Assembly: GCF_900104965.1 (NCBI RefSeq)
Contig: NZ_LT629757.1
Location: forward strand, 1,922,001-1,986,000
DNA length: 64,000 nucleotides
Direction: 5' to 3'
DNA from: Nocardioides scoriae
GTDB taxonomy: Bacteria; Actinomycetota; Actinomycetes; Propionibacteriales; Nocardioidaceae
The translations under genes were made by a program, and so were the position numbers. The notes below the pieces were generated by a model. The model did not search any database. It was not told the DNA's origin and saw nothing but the letters and a program-made list of their open reading frames with translations. Shown piece after piece: positions 42,719 through 50,774 of this stretch (position 1 is the stretch's first letter; each line of letters starts with the position of its first letter).

Positions 42719-42798
42719 GCCAGGAGTCGCCAGGACGGTGACGGAGGCGCCAGGGACGGTGCGACCCCACAGTCGTGCCCGATCCCGGAAGGCTTCCG

Positions 42799-44850
42799 TT
42801 GCCCCTCAAGCGCCTGACACAGCTCGGTGTCCCGGTCGGCATCGTGATGATCGTGGTGATGCTGGTCGTCCCGCTCCCCCCGATCGTGCTCGACCTGCTG
42901 ATCGCCCTCAACATCGTCGTCGCGCTGCTCATCCTGCTGACCGCGATGTTCGTCAGCCGCCCCCTCGACTTCTCGGCGTTCCCGGCGCTGATCCTGGTGA
43001 TGACGCTGTTCCGGCTCGCGCTCAACGTCAGCGCCACCCGGCTCGTCCTCCTCGACGGGTACGCCGGCAAGGTGATCGACACCTTCGGCCACTTCGTCGT
43101 CGGCGGCTCGCTCATCGTCGGCCTGATCGTGTTCTCGATCCTGCTCGTCATCCAGTTCGTCGTCATCACCAACGGTGCCGGCCGCGTCGCCGAGGTGGGG
43201 GCGCGCTTCACCCTCGACGCCATGCCCGGCAAGCAGATGGCCATCGACGCCGACCTCAACTCCGGCCTCATCGACGAGGACACCGCCCGGCTGCGCCGCA
43301 GCGAGGTCCACGCGGAGGCCGACTTCTACGGCGCGATGGACGGCGCCTCGAAGTTCGTCAAGGGCGACGCGATCGCCGCCATCGTGATCACGCTGGTCAA
43401 CCTGGTCGGCGGCTTCGCCGTCGGGGTCGCCCAGAACGGCATGTCCATGGGCGAGGCCGTCACGACGTACAGCCTGCTCTCGGTCGGTGACGGCCTGGTC
43501 TCCCAGGTCCCCGCCCTGCTGCTCTCGGTCGCCACCGGCCTCATCGTCACCCGCAACACGGGCAAGGACGACATGGGCTCGGAGATCGTGCGGCAGGTGA
43601 CCGCGCAGGCGATGCCGCTGCGCGTGGCCGGCTTCGCCGGGCTCTCGCTGTGCCTGATCCCCGGGCTGCCCAAGCTGCCGTTCATCCTGGCCGGCGGCCT
43701 GCTGCTGCTGGCCTCCACCCGCGCCGGCAAGGAGCAGGCGGCCGCCGCGGCCGCGGCCGAGGAGGTGCCCGCGGTCGAGGCCCGCTCCCAGGACACGCCC
43801 GAGGACCTCGCCCAGGAGATCCAGGTCGACCCGCTCGGCCTCGACCTCTCCGCCGACATCATCGACGTCGTCGACCCGGCGAGCGGCGGCGACCTGCTGC
43901 CGCGGGTCAAGGCGCTGCGGCGCAAGATCGCCGGCGACCTCGGCATCGTGATCCCGCCGCTGCGGACCCGCGACAACCTCGACCTGCCGGCCCAGACCTA
44001 CGCCATCAAGGTCTTCGGGGTCGAGGTCGCCCGCGGCGAGGCCCCGCGCGGGCACGTCCTGGCCATCGGGGAGTTCCTGGGCTCGCTGCCCGGCACCCCC
44101 ACCCAGGAGCCCGTCTTCGGCCTCGACGCCAAGTGGATCGCCACCGAGCTCAAGACCCAGGCCGAGCTGAGCGGCGCCACCGTCGTCGACCGGACCTCCG
44201 TCATCACCACCCACCTCGCCGAGGTGGTGCAGACGCAGGCCTCGCGGCTGCTCTCGCGCGAGGACGTGCGGCTGCTGACCGACGTGGTCAAGCGCACCCA
44301 CCCGGTCGTGGTCGAGGAGCTGACGCCGACGCTGCTCAGCCTGGGCGAGGTGCAGCGCGTGCTCCAGGCGCTGCTCGACGAGGGCATCTCGGTGCGCGAC
44401 CTGGTCCGCATCTTCGAGGCCCTCTCGCTGCGGGCCCAGGTCACCAAGGACGTCGACCTGCTCGTGGAGAGCGCCCGCGCGGCGCTCGGCCCCGCCCTGG
44501 TCGCCGCCCACACCCGCGACGGCACCGTGCACGTGCTGAGCCTCGAGCCGAGCCTCGAGCAGCGGATGCTGGAGTCGATGCGGCCCGGCGAGCATGGCGC
44601 CGTCCTCGCCCTCGACCCCGAGGTCGGGCACCGGCTGCTCACCCAGCTCGACCAGCTCGTCCGCGCCAGCCAGGAGACCGGCCAGGAGCCGGTGCTCGTC
44701 TGCGCCCCGCAGATCCGTCCCGCCCTGCGGCGGCTGCTGCGGCCCAGCCAGCCCGGTCTCGGCGTGCTGTCCTACACCGAGCTCCACGGGACGGCCCAGA
44801 TCCGCTCGGTCGGCGTCGTGGACGCCGAGGCCATGCTGGTCGCGCCGTGA
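42799..44850 (+). CDS. flhA: flagellar export gate protein FlhA
   Basis: Largest export component, 683 residues. It has eight TM helices in the first 320 residues and the FHIPEP-type loop region ARFTLDAMPGKQMAIDADLN with SGLIDEDTARLRRSEVHAEA. The cytoplasmic nonameric ring domain has RDNLDLPAQTYAIKVFGVEV and LTDVVKRTHPVVVEELTPTL. I prefer TTG 42799 because GGAAGG lies 6 bp upstream; an in-frame GTG at 42775 lacks a ribosome-binding site. It overlaps the next small gene by GTGA. Confidence 0.95.
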   Translation: MPLKRLTQLGVPVGIVMIVVMLVVPLPPIVLDLLIALNIVVALLILLTAMFVSRPLDFSAFPALILVMTLFRLALNVSATRLVLLDGYAGKVIDTFGHFVVGGSLIVGLIVFSILLVIQFVVITNGAGRVAEVGARFTLDAMPGKQMAIDADLNSGLIDEDTARLRRSEVHAEADFYGAMDGASKFVKGDAIAAIVITLVNLVGGFAVGVAQNGMSMGEAVTTYSLLSVGDGLVSQVPALLLSVATGLIVTRNTGKDDMGSEIVRQVTAQAMPLRVAGFAGLSLCLIPGLPKLPFILAGGLLLLASTRAGKEQAAAAAAAEEVPAVEARSQDTPEDLAQEIQVDPLGLDLSADIIDVVDPASGGDLLPRVKALRRKIAGDLGIVIPPLRTRDNLDLPAQTYAIKVFGVEVARGEAPRGHVLAIGEFLGSLPGTPTQEPVFGLDAKWIATELKTQAELSGATVVDRTSVITTHLAEVVQTQASRLLSREDVRLLTDVVKRTHPVVVEELTPTLLSLGEVQRVLQALLDEGISVRDLVRIFEALSLRAQVTKDVDLLVESARAALGPALVAAHTRDGTVHVLSLEPSLEQRMLESMRPGEHGAVLALDPEVGHRLLTQLDQLVRASQETGQEPVLVCAPQIRPALRRLLRPSQPGLGVLSYTELHGTAQIRSVGVVDAEAMLVAP

Positions 44851-45101
44851 GCGTCCCGCTGCCCGTCGTGGTCGCCGCCAGCGCGCTGGTCTCCTCCCCC
44901 GTCGCCTGGCTGCTGCACCGCGGCCTGCTGACCGGTCAGGACGCCGTCGAGCGGGTGCTGGTGCTGGCCGTGGTCACCTGGCTGGCCCTCAACGTGCTGG
45001 CGCTGCTCGCCTTCCCGGACCCGCCGCGCCCCTCTGCGGTCCCGAAGGCACCCGAGACCGACGAGTCCGGCGGTCAGCCGGTCTCGAGTGACGCGTTGTA
45101 G
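44847..45101 (+). CDS. small two-helix membrane protein coupled to flhA
   Basis: An 84-residue protein with two predicted TM helices (about 6–24 and 36–57) and a Pro/acidic C-terminal tail. I do not recognise the family. Its GTG overlaps the flhA stop (GTGA), so it is translated with flhA and is plausibly a flagellar accessory membrane protein. Its last 28 bp overlap the convergent marR gene. Confidence 0.72.
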   Translation: MSVPLPVVVAASALVSSPVAWLLHRGLLTGQDAVERVLVLAVVTWLALNVLALLAFPDPPRPSAVPKAPETDESGGQPVSSDAL

Positions 45102-45514
45102 CGCGCCATCACGTCGACGAAGCCCCGCAGGTCGTCGTGGGTCCAGTCGCCGAGCTTCTCGCGGAACTCCGCCCGCCGGTCGAGCGTCACCGCCTCCATC
45201 CGCTCCAGGCCGTGCGGCGTCAGCGCCAGGATCGCCGCCCGCCGGTCGTCCGGGTCGGGCGTGCGCTCGATGAGCCCCAGCTCGAGCAGCGTCGAGACCT
45301 GCCGGCTGATCGCCCCCTTGTCGACGGCGAACAGCTCGACCAGCGCGCTCGCCCGCTGCGGCCCGCCGTCGTGCAGCGCCATCAGCATCGAGTAGGCGAC
45401 GGGCGCCAGGTCGGGGTGCACCATCCGCGCCCTCAGGGCGATGCGGCGGCGCAGGCGCCGGATGAGCACGCTCATCTCGTGCTCCAGCGCCAGGATCGTC
45501 TCGTCGTCGGCCAT
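45074..45514 (-). CDS. MarR-family transcriptional regulator
   Basis: A 146-residue winged-helix regulator: LAPVAYSMLMALHDGGPQRA, then VDKGAISRQVSTLLELGLIE as recognition helix and TPDPDDRRAAILALTPHG as wing. The ligand is unknown. The ATG at 45514 is preceded by AGGATCC as weak ribosome-binding site and by an unusually long (~200 nt) structured leader with a 12-codon reading frame. The nearest drug-type transporter is the ABC pair at 46403–50151, but that has its own TetR. Confidence 0.92.
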   Translation of the reverse strand: MADDETILALEHEMSVLIRRLRRRIALRARMVHPDLAPVAYSMLMALHDGGPQRASALVELFAVDKGAISRQVSTLLELGLIERTPDPDDRRAAILALTPHGLERMEAVTLDRRAEFREKLGDWTHDDLRGFVDVMARYNASLETG

Positions 45515-45531
45515 GGGCGGATCCTAGTGAA

Positions 45532-45616
45532 AAGCAGCGACCCGCAGACGTGGCCCCGGGATGGGGCCGCTCCGGGGGACGTGTTCCCGGATCGTCTGCG
45601 GGTCGGGTGACTGCTT
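45532..45616 (-). ncRNA. structured leader RNA of marR (candidate attenuator)
   Basis: Reading leftward, a long stem pairs AAGCAG (45611–45616) and CGACCCGCAGACG (45593–45605) with CGTCTGCGGGTCG and CTGCTT (45532–45550), with a 5-base bulge, 19 pairs in all. Its top carries two smaller hairpins: TCCGGG/CCCGGA (45571–45591) and GGCCCC/GGGGCC (45552–45568). The stem is followed at once by T4 and then, 17 bases later, by the marR ATG. This is the shape of an intrinsic terminator or a translation-blocking structure in a leader. Confidence 0.65.
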
Positions 45617-45656
45617 GGAATTCACCAGCGCGCTCACGCGGCTGGGCGGTGCGCTG

Positions 45657-45695
45657 CTAGTGGGCAGCCACCTCACGCGTCCTCGAAGAACTCAT
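45657..45695 (-). CDS. 12-residue leader peptide MSSSRTREVAAH
   Basis: ATG 45695 to TAG 45657. It is preceded by an exceptionally complete Shine-Dalgarno, GGAAAGGAGGTGGTCC (45701–45716), the best in the window. The tiny frame starts about 26 bases after the predicted transcription start and ends 41 bases before the large stem-loop of the marR leader. It contains two Arg codons (AGG, CGT), both non-preferred here. A ribosome-sensing leader peptide is the simplest reading. Confidence 0.65.
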   Translation of the reverse strand: MSSSRTREVAAH

Positions 45696-45727
45696 TCCTC
45701 GGACCACCTCCTTTCCCGTGTCCGACC

Positions 45728-45756
45728 ACGGTAGATCGCCCGACGCCCGGACTCAA
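45728..45756 (-). promoter_or_regulatory. promoter of the marR leader
   Basis: Reading leftward: TTGAGT (45756–45751), a 17 bp spacer and TACCGT (45733–45728). Predicted start near 45721, 5 bases before the leader-peptide Shine-Dalgarno. Confidence 0.65.
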
Positions 45757-46402: not shown

Positions 46403-48421
46403 CTAGGTCGTGAGGGGCGCGGCGAACTGCGCCGCGTGCAGCCGGGCGTAGGCACCCTCGGCGGCGAGCAGCTCCTCGTGGCTGCCCTGCTCGACGATCG
46501 AGCCCGCCTCCATCACCAGGATCAGGTCGGCGTCACGGATCGTCGAGAGCCGGTGGGCGATGACGAACGACGTCCGGTCGCTGCGCAGGGCCCGCATGGC
46601 GTGCTGGAGCAGCAGCTCGGTGCGGGTGTCGACCGACGAGGTGGCCTCGTCGAGGATCAGCAGCGCGGGGTCGGACAGGAACGCGCGCGCGATGGTGACC
46701 AGCTGCCGCTCCCCCGCCGACAGGTTGGAGCCGTTCTCGTCGACGAGGGTGTCGTAGCCGTCCGGCAGCGAGTGCACGAAGCGGTCCACGAAGGTGGCGC
46801 GCGCCGCTGCGAGGACGTCCTCGGGGCCGGCGTCGGGGTTGCCGTAGGCGATGTTGTCGCGGATCGTCCCGGCGAACAGCCAGGTGTCCTGCAGCACCAT
46901 CCCGGTCTGGCGGCGCAGCTCGGCCCGGGGCACCGAGGCGACGTCGACGCCGTCGAGGGTGATGCGGCCGCCGCTGACCTCGTAGAAGCGCATCACCAGG
47001 TTGACCAGCGTGGTCTTGCCCGCCCCGGTCGGCCCCACGATGGCCACGGTCTGGCCCGGCCGGGCGACGAGCGACAGGTCCTGGACCAGCGGCCGCTCGG
47101 GGTCGTAGGAGAAGTCGACGTGCTCGAAGCGCACCTCCCCGCGGCGTACGCCGGACGGCCCCGGCCGGGTGCCGCCGGCCACCGCGGGCTCGGGGTCGGG
47201 GCTCTGCTCCTCGGCGTCGAGCAGCTCGAAGACCCGCTCGGCCGAGGCCACCCCGGACTGCAGCAGGTTGGCCATCGAGGCCACCTGGGTGAGCGGCTGG
47301 GTGAACTGGCGGGAGTACTGGATGAACGCCTGCACGTCACCCAGCGACAGCGAGCCGCTCGCGACCCGCAGGCCGCCGACGACCGCGATGACGACGTAGT
47401 TGAGGTTCCCGACGAACATCATGATCGGCATGATCAGGCCGCTGACGAACTGCGCCCCGAAGCTCGCGCGGTAGAGCTCGTCGTTCTCCACCGCGAAGAC
47501 CTCCTCGGCCTCCTGGCGACGGCCGAACACGGTCACCAGCGCGTGCCCGGAGAAGGACTCCTCGATGTGGGCGTTGAGCCGCCCCGTGCGCCGCCACTGC
47601 GTCACGAACAGGCCCTGCGAGCGGCCCATGACGACCTTGGCCACCAGCACCGAGACCGGCACCGAGACCAGCGCGACCAGGGCCAGCAGCGGCGAGATCC
47701 AGAACATCAGCGAGATCACCGCGAGCACCGTCAGCAGCGAGGTCAGCAGCTGGCTCATCGTCTGCTGCAGGGTCTGGCTGACGTTGTCGATGTCGTTGGT
47801 GACCCGGCTCAGCAGCTCGCCGCGGGCCTGGCGGTCCACGAAGCCGAGCGGCAGGGCGTTGACCTTGTCCTCGACCTCGGCCCGCAGCCGCCGCACGGTC
47901 TTCTGCACGACGTCGTTGAGCAGGTAGCCCTGGACGAACGCGAGCAGCCCCGCGACGGCGTACACCGCCAGGACGACGAGCAGCACGCGCCCGACCGCGT
48001 CGAAGTCGACGCCCCGACCCGGCACCAGGTCCATGGAGGACACCATCGCGGCCAGCTCGTCCTGGCCGCGCCCGCGCAGCTGGGCCACGGCCTGGGCCCG
48101 GGACAGCCCCTCGGGCAGGCGTGCGCCGAGGAGCCCGGCGAAGATCAGGTCGGTGGCCCGGCCGAGCAGCCACGGCCCCAGCGCGGTGAGGCCGGTGCTG
48201 ACCACGGCCAGCACCACCACGGCGACCGCCTTGGCGCGCTCCGGCGCCAGCCGTCCGACCAGCCGTCGGGCCGAGGGACCGAAGCTGGAGGCCTTCTGGC
48301 CGACCATGCCGCCACCGAAGGGACCACCCCGCCCGGGGCCTCCCCCGGACTGGACGCGCTCGGTCTCCTGGAGCTGGCCGGGGGCCTGCTCGCCCTCGGG
48401 ACGCGCGACGTCGGCGCTCAT
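46403..48421 (-). CDS. ABC exporter half-transporter B (consensus Walker B, altered signature)
   Basis: A 672-residue TMD–NBD protein of the multidrug/lipid exporter type. A 50-residue cytoplasmic leader precedes six TM helices. The NBD has Walker A GPTGAGKTT, an NLSAGERQ signature (LSAGE instead of LSGGQ) and Walker B LLILDEATSSVD with catalytic Glu. Combined with its partner's altered Walker B this gives one degenerate and one active ATP site, as in TM287/288-like heterodimers. ATG 48421 overlaps the upstream gene's stop by 4 bp. Confidence 0.93.
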   Translation of the reverse strand: MSADVARPEGEQAPGQLQETERVQSGGGPGRGGPFGGGMVGQKASSFGPSARRLVGRLAPERAKAVAVVVLAVVSTGLTALGPWLLGRATDLIFAGLLGARLPEGLSRAQAVAQLRGRGQDELAAMVSSMDLVPGRGVDFDAVGRVLLVVLAVYAVAGLLAFVQGYLLNDVVQKTVRRLRAEVEDKVNALPLGFVDRQARGELLSRVTNDIDNVSQTLQQTMSQLLTSLLTVLAVISLMFWISPLLALVALVSVPVSVLVAKVVMGRSQGLFVTQWRRTGRLNAHIEESFSGHALVTVFGRRQEAEEVFAVENDELYRASFGAQFVSGLIMPIMMFVGNLNYVVIAVVGGLRVASGSLSLGDVQAFIQYSRQFTQPLTQVASMANLLQSGVASAERVFELLDAEEQSPDPEPAVAGGTRPGPSGVRRGEVRFEHVDFSYDPERPLVQDLSLVARPGQTVAIVGPTGAGKTTLVNLVMRFYEVSGGRITLDGVDVASVPRAELRRQTGMVLQDTWLFAGTIRDNIAYGNPDAGPEDVLAAARATFVDRFVHSLPDGYDTLVDENGSNLSAGERQLVTIARAFLSDPALLILDEATSSVDTRTELLLQHAMRALRSDRTSFVIAHRLSTIRDADLILVMEAGSIVEQGSHEELLAAEGAYARLHAAQFAAPLTT

Positions 48422-50151
48422 GCGACCGCCTCCGCGCCCAGCTGGGAGGCGACGATCTCCTGGTACGTCGCGCACGTCTCGAGCAGCTCGTCGTGCGTGC
48501 CGCGCCCCACCACGGCGCCGTCCTCGACCACCAGGACCAGGTCGGCGTCGCGGATGCTCGAGACCCGCTGGGCCACGACCAGCACCGTCGCGTCGCGCGT
48601 CACCGGTCGCAGGGCTTCACGCAGGCGGGCGTCCGTGGCCAGGTCCAGCGCGCTGGACGAGTCGTCGAACAGGTAGACCAGGGGTCGCCGCACGAGCGCC
48701 CGGGCGATCGCGAGCCGCTGCCGCTGGCCACCGCTGAGGTTGGTGCCGCCCTGCGAGACCGGGGCGTCGAGCCCCTCGGGCAGCGCCTCGACGAAGTCGC
48801 GGGCCTGCGCGGTCGTCAGCGCCTCCCACAGCTCGGCCTCGGTCGCGTCGGGGCGGCCGTAGGCCAGGTTGGAGCGCACCGTGCCGGAGAACAGCCACGC
48901 CTGCTGGGGCACCAGCCCGACCGAGCGGTGCAGCACGTCGGGGTCGAGGCGCCGCACGTCGACCCCGCCGACCAGCACCCGGCCCTCGGTGACGTCGACC
49001 AGCCGCGGCACCAGGTCGACCATCGTCGTCTTGCCGGCGCCGGTCGAGCCGATGATCGCCACCACCTGGCCCGGCCGGGCCTCGAAGGAGACGTCGCGCA
49101 CCACCGCGGACGCGGCGCCCGGGTAGCTGAACCCGACGTGCTCGAAGCGGAGCGTGCCGGCGTCGGCCAGCTCGGTCACCGGCTCGCGGGGCGGCACCAC
49201 CGACGACTCGGTGTCGAGCACCTCCATGATCCGGTCGGCGCAGACCGCCGAGCGCGGCACCATCATCAGCATGAAGGTGCCCATCATCACCGACATCAGG
49301 ATCTGCATCAGGTAGGCGAGGTACGCCGTCAGCGCCCCCACCTGCATCTGCCCGGCCTCGACGCGGTGGCCGCCGAACCACAGCACCGCCACCGAGGAGA
49401 CGTTGGCGATGAGCATGACCGCGGGGAACATCGCCGCGAGCCACCGCCCGGCGCGGATCGAGACGTCGGTCAGGTCGCCGTTGGCGCGGGCGAAGCGCTC
49501 GGTCTCGTAGGGCTCGCGCACGAACGCCCGCACCACGCGCACGCCGGTGATCTGCTCGCGCAGCAGCCGGTTGACCTCGTCGATGCGCTCCTGCATCGCG
49601 CGGAAGCTGGGCACCATCCGGCGGATGATCAGCCCGATCACCAGCACCAGCACGGGCACCGCCACGGCCAGCAGCCACGACAGCCCGAGGTCCTCGCGCA
49701 TCGCCATCACGACGCCGCCGACCATCATGATCGGCGCGGTCACCATCAGGGTGCAGCTCATCAGCACCAGCATCTGCACCTGCTGGACGTCGTTGGTCTC
49801 GCGGGTGATGAGCGACGGCGCCCCGAAGCGGGTCACCTCGCGCTGGGAGAAGCTGCCCACCCGGTGGAACAGCTCGCGGCGCACGTCGCGGCCGAAGCTC
49901 ATCGCCGTGCGCGCCGAGAACCACACCGCCGCGATCGAGCACGCCACCTGGAGCAGGGCGACGACGAGCATCACGCCGCCGGTGCGCACGACGTACGCCG
50001 TGTCGCCGGTCGCGACGCCGCGGTCGATGATGTCGGCGTTGAGGCTGGGCAGGTACAGCGCCGCCATGGTGCCGACCAGCTGGAGGAGCACGACCGCGCC
50101 CAGCCAGGTCCGGTAGGGGCGCAACCGGGTGCGCACGAGCCGCAGCAGCAT
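48418..50151 (-). CDS. ABC exporter half-transporter A (degenerate catalytic site)
   Basis: A 577-residue TMD–NBD protein. Six TM helices come first, then Walker A GSTGAGKTT, Q-loop VPQQAWLFSG, canonical signature NLSGGQRQRLAIAR, and Walker B VYLFDDSSSALD, where the catalytic Glu is Asp. This is the usual non-hydrolytic half of heterodimeric exporters. It starts at ATG 50151, one base shared with the tetR stop, and is translated with its partner. Probable substrates are drugs or lipids. Confidence 0.94.
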   Translation of the reverse strand: MLLRLVRTRLRPYRTWLGAVVLLQLVGTMAALYLPSLNADIIDRGVATGDTAYVVRTGGVMLVVALLQVACSIAAVWFSARTAMSFGRDVRRELFHRVGSFSQREVTRFGAPSLITRETNDVQQVQMLVLMSCTLMVTAPIMMVGGVVMAMREDLGLSWLLAVAVPVLVLVIGLIIRRMVPSFRAMQERIDEVNRLLREQITGVRVVRAFVREPYETERFARANGDLTDVSIRAGRWLAAMFPAVMLIANVSSVAVLWFGGHRVEAGQMQVGALTAYLAYLMQILMSVMMGTFMLMMVPRSAVCADRIMEVLDTESSVVPPREPVTELADAGTLRFEHVGFSYPGAASAVVRDVSFEARPGQVVAIIGSTGAGKTTMVDLVPRLVDVTEGRVLVGGVDVRRLDPDVLHRSVGLVPQQAWLFSGTVRSNLAYGRPDATEAELWEALTTAQARDFVEALPEGLDAPVSQGGTNLSGGQRQRLAIARALVRRPLVYLFDDSSSALDLATDARLREALRPVTRDATVLVVAQRVSSIRDADLVLVVEDGAVVGRGTHDELLETCATYQEIVASQLGAEAVA

Positions 50152-50774
50152 CAGGCGTCCCCCTCCTGGCGGGAGTCGGGTCGCGCGAACCCCTCGAGCA
50201 GCAGCCGGGTCACGACCTCGGGAGTGAGCGGGGAGGGCGAGGGCATCCCGGGGCTGTGCGCGCCGAGCATGAGCGCCCGGAAGGCGGCCGCGGCCACCAG
50301 CGGCTCCACGCGCAGCTCGTCGGCGGAGAGCTCGAAGACCCGGGTCAGGCGCTCCATCAGCGCCTCGTTGGCCTCGACGAGGAAGCGCGGCGGGCCCAGC
50401 GGCGCTCCACGGCCGTGGGCGGCCTGCTCCATCAGCGGCCGCATCACCATCATCGTGGCGTGGACCTCGCGCATCCGCGCCTGGGACCGCTCGGCCAGGA
50501 CGAGCAGCCGCGTCGCGAGCCCCGGCAGCGAGGCCATCAGCCCGACCAGCTGGTCGGCGGTGTCGGGCGGTCGCAGCACCTCCTCGAGGACGGCGTGCAG
50601 CAGCGCGCCCTTGTCCTCGAAGACGCGGTAGATCGTCCCCTCGGCGATGCCGGCCGCCTGCGCGATCTCGCGGGTGCTGGGCATCCGGCCGTGCTCGAGC
50701 ACCAGCGGCGCCACGGCCGACACGATCGCCGCCCGTCGCTCCTCGGGCGCCATCGGCGTCGCGCGTGGGGTCAT
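50151..50774 (-). CDS. TetR-family regulator of the ABC exporter
   Basis: A 207-residue repressor with N-terminal helix-turn-helix: MPSTREIAQAAGIAEGTIYR followed by VFEDKGALLHAV. The C-terminal ligand-binding domain is Leu/Met/Ala-rich. First gene of a three-gene operon with both ABC halves (TGATG, ATGA overlaps). An operator palindrome sits directly upstream, overlapping the promoter, so autoregulation is likely. Confidence 0.94.
   Translation of the reverse strand: MTPRATPMAPEERRAAIVSAVAPLVLEHGRMPSTREIAQAAGIAEGTIYRVFEDKGALLHAVLEEVLRPPDTADQLVGLMASLPGLATRLLVLAERSQARMREVHATMMVMRPLMEQAAHGRGAPLGPPRFLVEANEALMERLTRVFELSADELRVEPLVAAAAFRALMLGAHSPGMPSPSPLTPEVVTRLLLEGFARPDSRQEGDA

Follow-up and report, generated by a model that had tools for sequence, protein, structure and literature searches.

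Ms_IGR-5 upstream of marR in Nocardioides scoriae: a widespread actinobacterial small RNA that seems to carry a translated mini-frame within its fold

What is the short transcription unit that lies directly upstream of a marR-family gene in Nocardioides scoriae, and does it control that gene? The window analysed here is a 64,000-nucleotide stretch of this genome, and an earlier note had read the element as a ribosome-sensing attenuator in the leader of marR. The minus strand carries, in order, TTGAGT-N17-TACCGT, the predicted RNA start A45721, the ribosome-binding site GAAAGGAGGTGGTCC, a reading frame, a branched stem, TTTT and the marR ATG at 45514. The promoter with its predicted start, the strong ribosome-binding site with its 12-codon frame, and the succession of stem, TTTT and marR start are all present as the note described them. 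Elsewhere in the window, two adjacent ABC exporter genes occupy 46403-50580 on the minus strand (Pfam ABC_membrane, ABC_tran), and an FHIPEP-family gene (flhA-like export protein) at 42775-44850 on the plus strand reads toward marR. The features of the locus are:

45756-45751, minus strand: -35 box TTGAGT of the sRNA promoter, from the sequence
45733-45728, minus strand: -10 box TACCGT, N17 after the -35 box
A45721, minus strand: predicted RNA start, from the spacing of the -10 box
45721-45532, minus strand: whole RNA, Rfam RF02471 Ms_IGR-5, by cmscan
45717-45720, minus strand: 5′ strand CACG of helix P0, pairing with 45674-45677 (covariation)
45715-45701, minus strand: extended ribosome-binding site GAAAGGAGGTGGTCC; can form 15 pairs, one of them G-U, with the 16S rRNA 3′ tail
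45704-45701, minus strand: 5′ strand GUCC of the putative helix P1, within the ribosome-binding site
45695-45657, minus strand: 12-codon frame ATG...TAG, MSSSRTREVAAH; 114 of 116 distinct same-class relatives share the length exactly
45679-45682, minus strand: GGAC in the frame, either the 3′ strand of P1 (with 45701-45704) or the 5′ strand of a pseudoknot (with 45577-45580)
45674-45677, minus strand: 3′ strand CGTG of P0, inside the frame (covariation)
45664-45672, minus strand: 5′ strand GGTGGCTGC of helix P3, at the frame end (covariation; mean pair probability 0.99)
45606-45614, minus strand: 3′ strand GCAGTCACC of P3, at the terminator foot, pairing with the frame end
45538-45605, minus strand: P4, branched terminator-like stem with two hairpins on top; 13 pairs, 45605-45593 with 45550-45538
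45577-45580, minus strand: GTCC, in the first of the P4 apical loops; pairs with the frame GGAC in the pseudoknot
45530-45537, minus strand: CTGCTTTT, optional P4 foot plus U4, the foot pairing with 45616-45611
45533-45530, minus strand: TTTT after the stem, from the sequence
45521-45526, minus strand: TAGGAT, probable -10 box of a leaderless marR promoter (TANNNT-N6/7-start in 10 of 11 marR loci, by eye)
45074-45514, minus strand: marR-family regulator gene, the downstream neighbour (Pfam MarR_2 and MarR above cut-off)

The earlier note could name no described Rfam family for this element, which proved wrong. Rfam RF02471, Ms_IGR-5, matches it in cmscan with 127.5 bits against a gathering cut-off of 45 (E = 1.9e-28) over model positions 1-184 of 184, that is, above the cut-off over the full model, and this is the sole RF02471 match in the source genome. 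The folding energy of the element has a z-score of -4.1, and none of 200 dinucleotide shuffles folds as well. An automated promoter and simple terminator scanner run on the window made no call at the element, and P4 was absent from its output. The Rfam model finds matches in 97 of 120 genomes sampled from the bacterial family, Nocardioidaceae; 96 of the 97 have a single match and one (G102) has two that overlap. Across the phylum, 70 of 396 sampled genomes match at E <= 0.001, 35 of these over the Rfam cut-off, while the same model gave no match in 14 control genomes. Eight far or deep relatives tested against Ms_IGR-5 yielded none at the Rfam cut-off. A second model, R1, comprising the 5′ domain of the RNA with P0 and P1, finds the RNA in 146 of the 396 phylum genomes against 70 with Rfam, its E-values being rough and the control genomes having been run with the Rfam model only. 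Within the family R1 and Rfam agree at 97 of 120 genomes, so the genomes of genus g19 without a match seem truly to lack a copy rather than to hide one; among the genomes listed for that genus, 6 have the RNA and 13 do not. Ms_IGR-5 RNA is found widely in Actinomycetota.

The accessible portions of PMC8079986, PMC8780764 and PMC10454040 class Ms_IGR-5 as an sRNA. Discrete expression in other species is reported in the accessible portions of PMC4974804, PMC10454040 and PMC8780764, the first of which also records ribosome-protected reads on the homologues of M. abscessus and M. smegmatis. In these same portions, and in the literature listings searched, no frame or pseudoknot is described for Ms_IGR-5. 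PMC11133741 was considered as a description of the frame and set aside, because the small frame in its accessible text sits at a different place. In the window, the features of a discrete sRNA that can be read from the sequence are a promoter and a terminator-like stem.

We compared 298 loci: 158 selected with the Rfam model (159 less L041, where the contig is cut and the element was not located), 120 found with a degenerate pattern (there are at least 120 such loci) and 20 deep loci. The deep loci were picked from the 146 R1 matches so as to represent weak and unfamiliar families; the very weakest matches lay outside this choice. Seven of the 70 phylum Rfam matches fell outside the first locus set, and one was added later (L328). 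Duplicates were removed before counting, leaving 155 loci for the pseudoknot, 120 for the P3 pairs, 233 with a P4 arm for the foot of that stem and 175 for the P3 duplex. The RNA has its own promoter at a fixed distance: in 126 of 145 Rfam-selected loci (distinct by their first 60 nt, with more than 50 nt available upstream) the last base of TANNNT lies 6 or 7 nt 5′ of the A of AC, and TTG lies 18-26 nt 5′ of the -10 box in 110 of the 128 relatives that have one.

The source genome has two copies of 16S-like 3′ ends reading TGGATCACCTCCTTTCT, and the ribosome-binding site can thus pair with this tail along 15 nt; with the source-genome tail assumed for all, 292 of the 298 loci allow 15 or more contiguous pairs (G-U included). 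In genus g19 the site is altered (ATTGGAGG) in four of the six copies (L215, L217, L220 and L224). Frames were counted in 150 distinct Rfam-selected loci, 116 near (same-class) and 34 far. In the near loci the start codon, 21 nt before GAG, is ATG (88), GTG (16) or TTG (12), its T and G invariant and the adjacent bases variable. The frame has 12 codons in 114 of them, the other two having 13 and 17, and this length stays fixed while the spacing from GGAGG to the start ranges from 10 to 12. The stop stands at the same codon as TAG (107), TGA (4) or TAA (3). The pattern-selected loci give 12 codons in 119 of 120, a count in which the search pattern itself fixes part of the frame.

Could the frame be a by-product of conserved sequence in an ordinary trans-acting sRNA, with no purposeful translation? 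The stand-alone transcript, the terminator-like stem and the sRNA annotation in the accessible portions of PMC8079986, PMC4974804 and PMC8780764 fit such an account, as does the far group, where 19 of 34 relatives show no ATG, GTG or TTG start in the register tested. The remaining 15 carry a frame of 13-14 codons with one of these starts. At the expected start, CTG occurs in L249, L252, L255, L264, L266, L270, L273 and L275, ATT in L257 and L258, and ATC in L262 and L268, all of them far relatives and all perhaps weak starts. What speaks against a by-product is that the start varies at its first base alone, that the stop changes in type and keeps its place, and that frame length is constant despite a variable spacer; the ribosome footprints in the accessible part of PMC4974804 point the same way. 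Deep relatives, moreover, re-create the frame in another register. Nineteen of the 20 deep loci keep a frame of 10-15 codons to the conserved stop, in two registers and with unrelated peptides. Two of the 19 far relatives mentioned above, L277 and L278, carry a 10-codon TTG frame in another register. A frame in a different register (for example LHSTSGGGSS) occurs in L277, L278 and L322-L325, with the same ribosome-binding site before it and the same stop. We regard an ordinary sRNA with an incidental frame as unlikely.

A conserved 12-residue micropeptide with a function of its own would also explain a frame length held in 114 of 116 near loci. The commonest peptide core, RTREVAA, is found in 37 of the 116, and [RW]T[RC]EVA[AV] fits 69; a near-universal peptide pattern was ruled out by this last count. 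Codons 8 and 9 (GAG GTG) are identical in all 116 loci, without even a synonymous change, and codon 10 differs once, at its third position; codons 5, 7, 11 and 12, in contrast, often differ in the amino acid encoded, and codons 2-4 also vary. Third positions are free to vary in codons 6 and 11, at sites that belong neither to P0 nor to the first nine pairs of P3. In deep relatives the encoded peptide is, for example, LHSTSGGGSS or MSSDQRVTVEVMSR, with start region and stop shared. A functional micropeptide is on this evidence very unlikely. The frame is real and its translation looks conserved, while the peptide is not; what selection maintains seems to be the act of translation, not the product.

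The comparison also altered the picture of the fold. P0 joins RNA nucleotides 2-5 to NGUG inside the frame. Its second pair is A-U in 121, G-C in 13, C-G in 12, U-A in 1 and G-U in 1 of 150 distinct loci, with 2 mismatches; the helix shows all four Watson–Crick pair types, pairs 2-4 are each reached by 0 of 2000 shuffles, and a register slid by one fails the covariation test. An alignment of 71 sequences gave P0 and P1 together a covariation score of 0.282 against 0.103 when shuffled and at most 0.093 for slid versions. Both-sided changes filled 43 cells in P0 against 1 in P1, and one of five measures, the number of pairs with both-sided change (4), was no better than in shuffled alignments (238 of 500). 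Thermodynamics alone do not predict P0: in ViennaRNA its pair probability in the window sequence is 0.000, that of P1 is 0.23, and imposing both costs about 8 kcal/mol. P1, in which GUCC at the end of the ribosome-binding site pairs with the frame GGAC, hardly varies. Its covariation was not convincing, the two varying pairs being reached by 65 and 68 of 2000 shuffles. All covariation shuffles disregard the relatedness of the sequences.

P3 pairs the frame end with a conserved GCAGUCACC strand before the terminator. Among the 120 distinct loci of the same class, none of 2000 shuffles reached pairs 8-10, 313 of 2000 reached pair 5, and pairs 1-4 and 6 were uninformative; the inner pairs are nearly invariant. 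Compensation is seen for example in CUAC/GUAG, CUAGC/GUUAG and CCGAG/CUCGG. The 3′ strand was placed by a profile anchor, which left 2 of 278 loci without a placement and misplaced it in several far and deep ones; a first anchor, which misplaced some loci and missed 24 of 278, was dropped in its favour. With anchored strands, 0 of 200 permutations gave as good a duplex energy in the near (120), far (35) or deep (20) group. The unanchored test was nearly flat, with a mean of -19.2 for own and -18.3 for swapped partners in the 120 near loci, and the own partner was best in 24 of 120 near, 2 of 35 far and 2 of 20 deep loci.

The pseudoknot, examined in 155 loci, joins GGAY of the frame to RUCC in the terminator loop. 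GGAC finds GUCC in 107 of 133 loci, GGAU finds AUCC in 11 of 14 and CGAC finds GUCG in 3 of 3; the loop test missed 26 of the 133 GGAC members, 3 of the 14 GGAU members and all 4 with AGAC, partly because strands are misplaced in far loci. Deep loci offer longer versions (GUGACC/GGUCAC, GUGACG/CGUCAC), and in several deep lineages no pseudoknot partner was seen. A recurrent CCATGTCC-like tail 3′ of P4 occurs in many loci, and its extra GUCC could pair with the frame GGAC. By these comparisons P0, P3 and the pseudoknot are helices new to Ms_IGR-5, each with compensatory changes.

The earlier note had described a 19-pair stem topped by two hairpins. The pairs are present, 13 in P4 and six in a foot beyond an internal loop, AAGCAG (45616-45611) with CTGCTT (45537-45532), but the foot does not belong to the favoured fold. 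When the transcript beginning at A45721 is folded, GCAG joins the frame end in P3 (mean pair probability 0.99), and the foot has a probability of 0.005. Of 233 distinct elements, 69 have an exact complement for the foot, where shuffles average 55 and reach 66 at most; in the 60 elements with a strand other than GCAG there is no compensation. These two counts ruled out the foot as a conserved terminator base.

Is the RNA nevertheless a leader of marR? A true leader would have a co-directional gene after it throughout. A crude GC-frame gene caller found the next gene over the 298 loci to be co-directional in 127 (74 of 158 Rfam-selected, 45 of 120 pattern and 8 of 20 deep loci), convergent in 134 (68, 54 and 12) and uncalled in 37 (16, 21 and 0). 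Neighbours are thus mixed, often convergent and unrelated, and the element is not a marR leader in general, contrary to what the note had proposed. A marR homologue lies within 450 nt downstream in 11 of 278 loci, and four further loci carry one farther off, about 2 kb downstream and on the same strand; a co-directional gene kept with the leader, as attenuation would entail, was not found among the 298. By eye, L024 and L025 show, 3′ of the sRNA stem and ahead of an MFS-transporter-like gene, an inverted-repeat sequence resembling an operator, and in L038, L072, L108 and L152 a convergent TIR-like gene (MPLFISYSSQDRATVDALTSALRRAQQQVWFDQ...) adjoins the RNA.

The marR genes themselves have a promoter pattern. 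In 10 of the 11 marR loci, judged by eye, TANNNT stands 6 or 7 nt before the start (L180 is without it), the loci overlapping in that L003 and L004 are nearly identical at the marR start and L199 and L101 are identical. As background, TANNNT-N6/7-start occurs at 15 of 3217 ATG/GTG triplets in the window. The pattern is a leaderless-promoter signature, by which the marR transcript probably starts at 45514 from its own promoter; a start downstream of 45532 is the outcome that the note had named as refuting its reading. Neighbourhood and promoter pattern together ruled out marR attenuation as the general function of the element, which, judged by the comparison, is a separate small RNA gene independent of marR.

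A narrower proposal is that this lineage has adapted the sRNA locally as a ribosome-mediated marR attenuator: an untranslated frame would leave P3 as antiterminator, and a ribosome at the stop would allow the GCAG-CUGC foot, followed by U4, to terminate transcription before marR. Local use of this kind is conceivable because CTGC, which follows P4 in all 11 marR loci (8 distinct elements), could compete with P3, and blocking 45715-45645 in silico does convert P3 into the P4 foot. P3 and the foot can thus exclude each other in the window, but across relatives the foot is patchy, with the 69 of 233 complements and the absence of compensation given above, and TTTT follows the stem in just 3 of 11 marR loci (L001, L003 and L004; L010 has TTT). 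Foot complements are somewhat commoner before same-strand (40 of 107) than before convergent neighbours (25 of 98), and 25 of the called co-directional neighbours fall into a single cluster, judged by eye to be MFS-transporter-like, while 9 are marR genes; about half of all called neighbours, on the other hand, are convergent, and the leaderless pattern at marR again weighs against termination upstream of it. A translated short frame is present by comparison, whereas neither control codons nor a conserved arrest peptide is seen, the core fitting 69 of 116 near loci and the deep peptides differing wholly. We consider a local marR attenuator improbable. From the scheme of a ribosome-sensing attenuator, the translated mini-frame, the coupled structure and the ribosome-alterable pairings are retained by comparison, and the role as marR leader is not.

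The element is probably a stand-alone Ms_IGR-5 sRNA with its own promoter and terminator and a fold that ribosomes would open, marR being only its neighbour in this lineage. Comparison across genomes shows the family membership, the frame with its start and stop, P0, P3, the pseudoknot and the independence from marR; we infer translation in the source organism, switching, the order of events and an output in trans. The RNA would double as a miniature mRNA, the 16S 3′ tail pairing with 15 nt and ribosomes reading the 12 codons. Codons of the frame would at the same time serve as strands, of P0 with the RNA 5′ end, of P1 or the pseudoknot through GGAC, and of P3 with the terminator foot. With no ribosome, the RNA would stay folded closed. 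Docking of a 30S subunit would occupy GUCC of P1, which would release GGAC to pair with the terminator loop. By moving on to the stop, the ribosome would then remove P0 and P3, and the loop and the GCAGUCACC strand, which is conserved, would be exposed. The RNA would probably act in trans, through the exposed strand or loop, or by retaining the ribosome.

The architecture of Ms_IGR-5 RNA suggests that it responds to ribosomes. More tentatively, and with the balance of our judgement against it, it may be an ancient sensor of ribosome supply in Actinomycetota, in which 15-nt docking lets GGAC clamp the loop, translation resets the fold irrespective of codon content, and a strand is exposed to act in trans. 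If true, it would be a general translation sensor, neither leader nor peptide gene. The wider interest lies in a mostly single-copy RNA across the phylum of streptomycetes and mycobacteria that is filed, in the accessible literature, as an sRNA without a stated role. For this RNA the comparison yields a corrected structure, a frame seemingly selected for translation and a concrete switching scheme, and it corrects the tempting label of marR attenuator. That a frame persists in two registers points with unusual clarity to translation itself as the function.

The accessible part of PMC8388888 lists scr2736 of Streptomyces coelicolor, with Rfam, as a conserved Streptomyces sRNA and describes no frame or pseudoknot for it. 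Its locus number and, in a Streptomyces-like locus, a convergent neighbour that is PdxH-like (both judged by eye) suggest that scr2736 belongs to Ms_IGR-5. The whole window element matches Rfam Ms_IGR-5 (127.5 bits), and the Rfam consensus structure differs from the fold found here: it is without P0, P1, P3 and the pseudoknot, it leaves the 3′ strand of P3 unpaired, and in it the frame end serves as partner of the ribosome-binding site. Ms_IGR-5 is a known sRNA family by name; a translated, pseudoknotted RNA seems to be a new view of it. In attenuators of the trp type and of the whiB7/wblC uORF type, translation of a short frame competes with RNA pairing beside a terminator. Ms_IGR-5 shares with them the short frame and the opposition of translation and pairing next to a terminator, but it has no fixed downstream gene, shows no control codons and does not conserve the peptide. 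SgrS and RNAIII are dual-function sRNAs with a small frame and, like Ms_IGR-5, stand-alone RNAs; Ms_IGR-5 differs from both in keeping the start and stop rather than the peptide, and in that the frame itself makes the helices.
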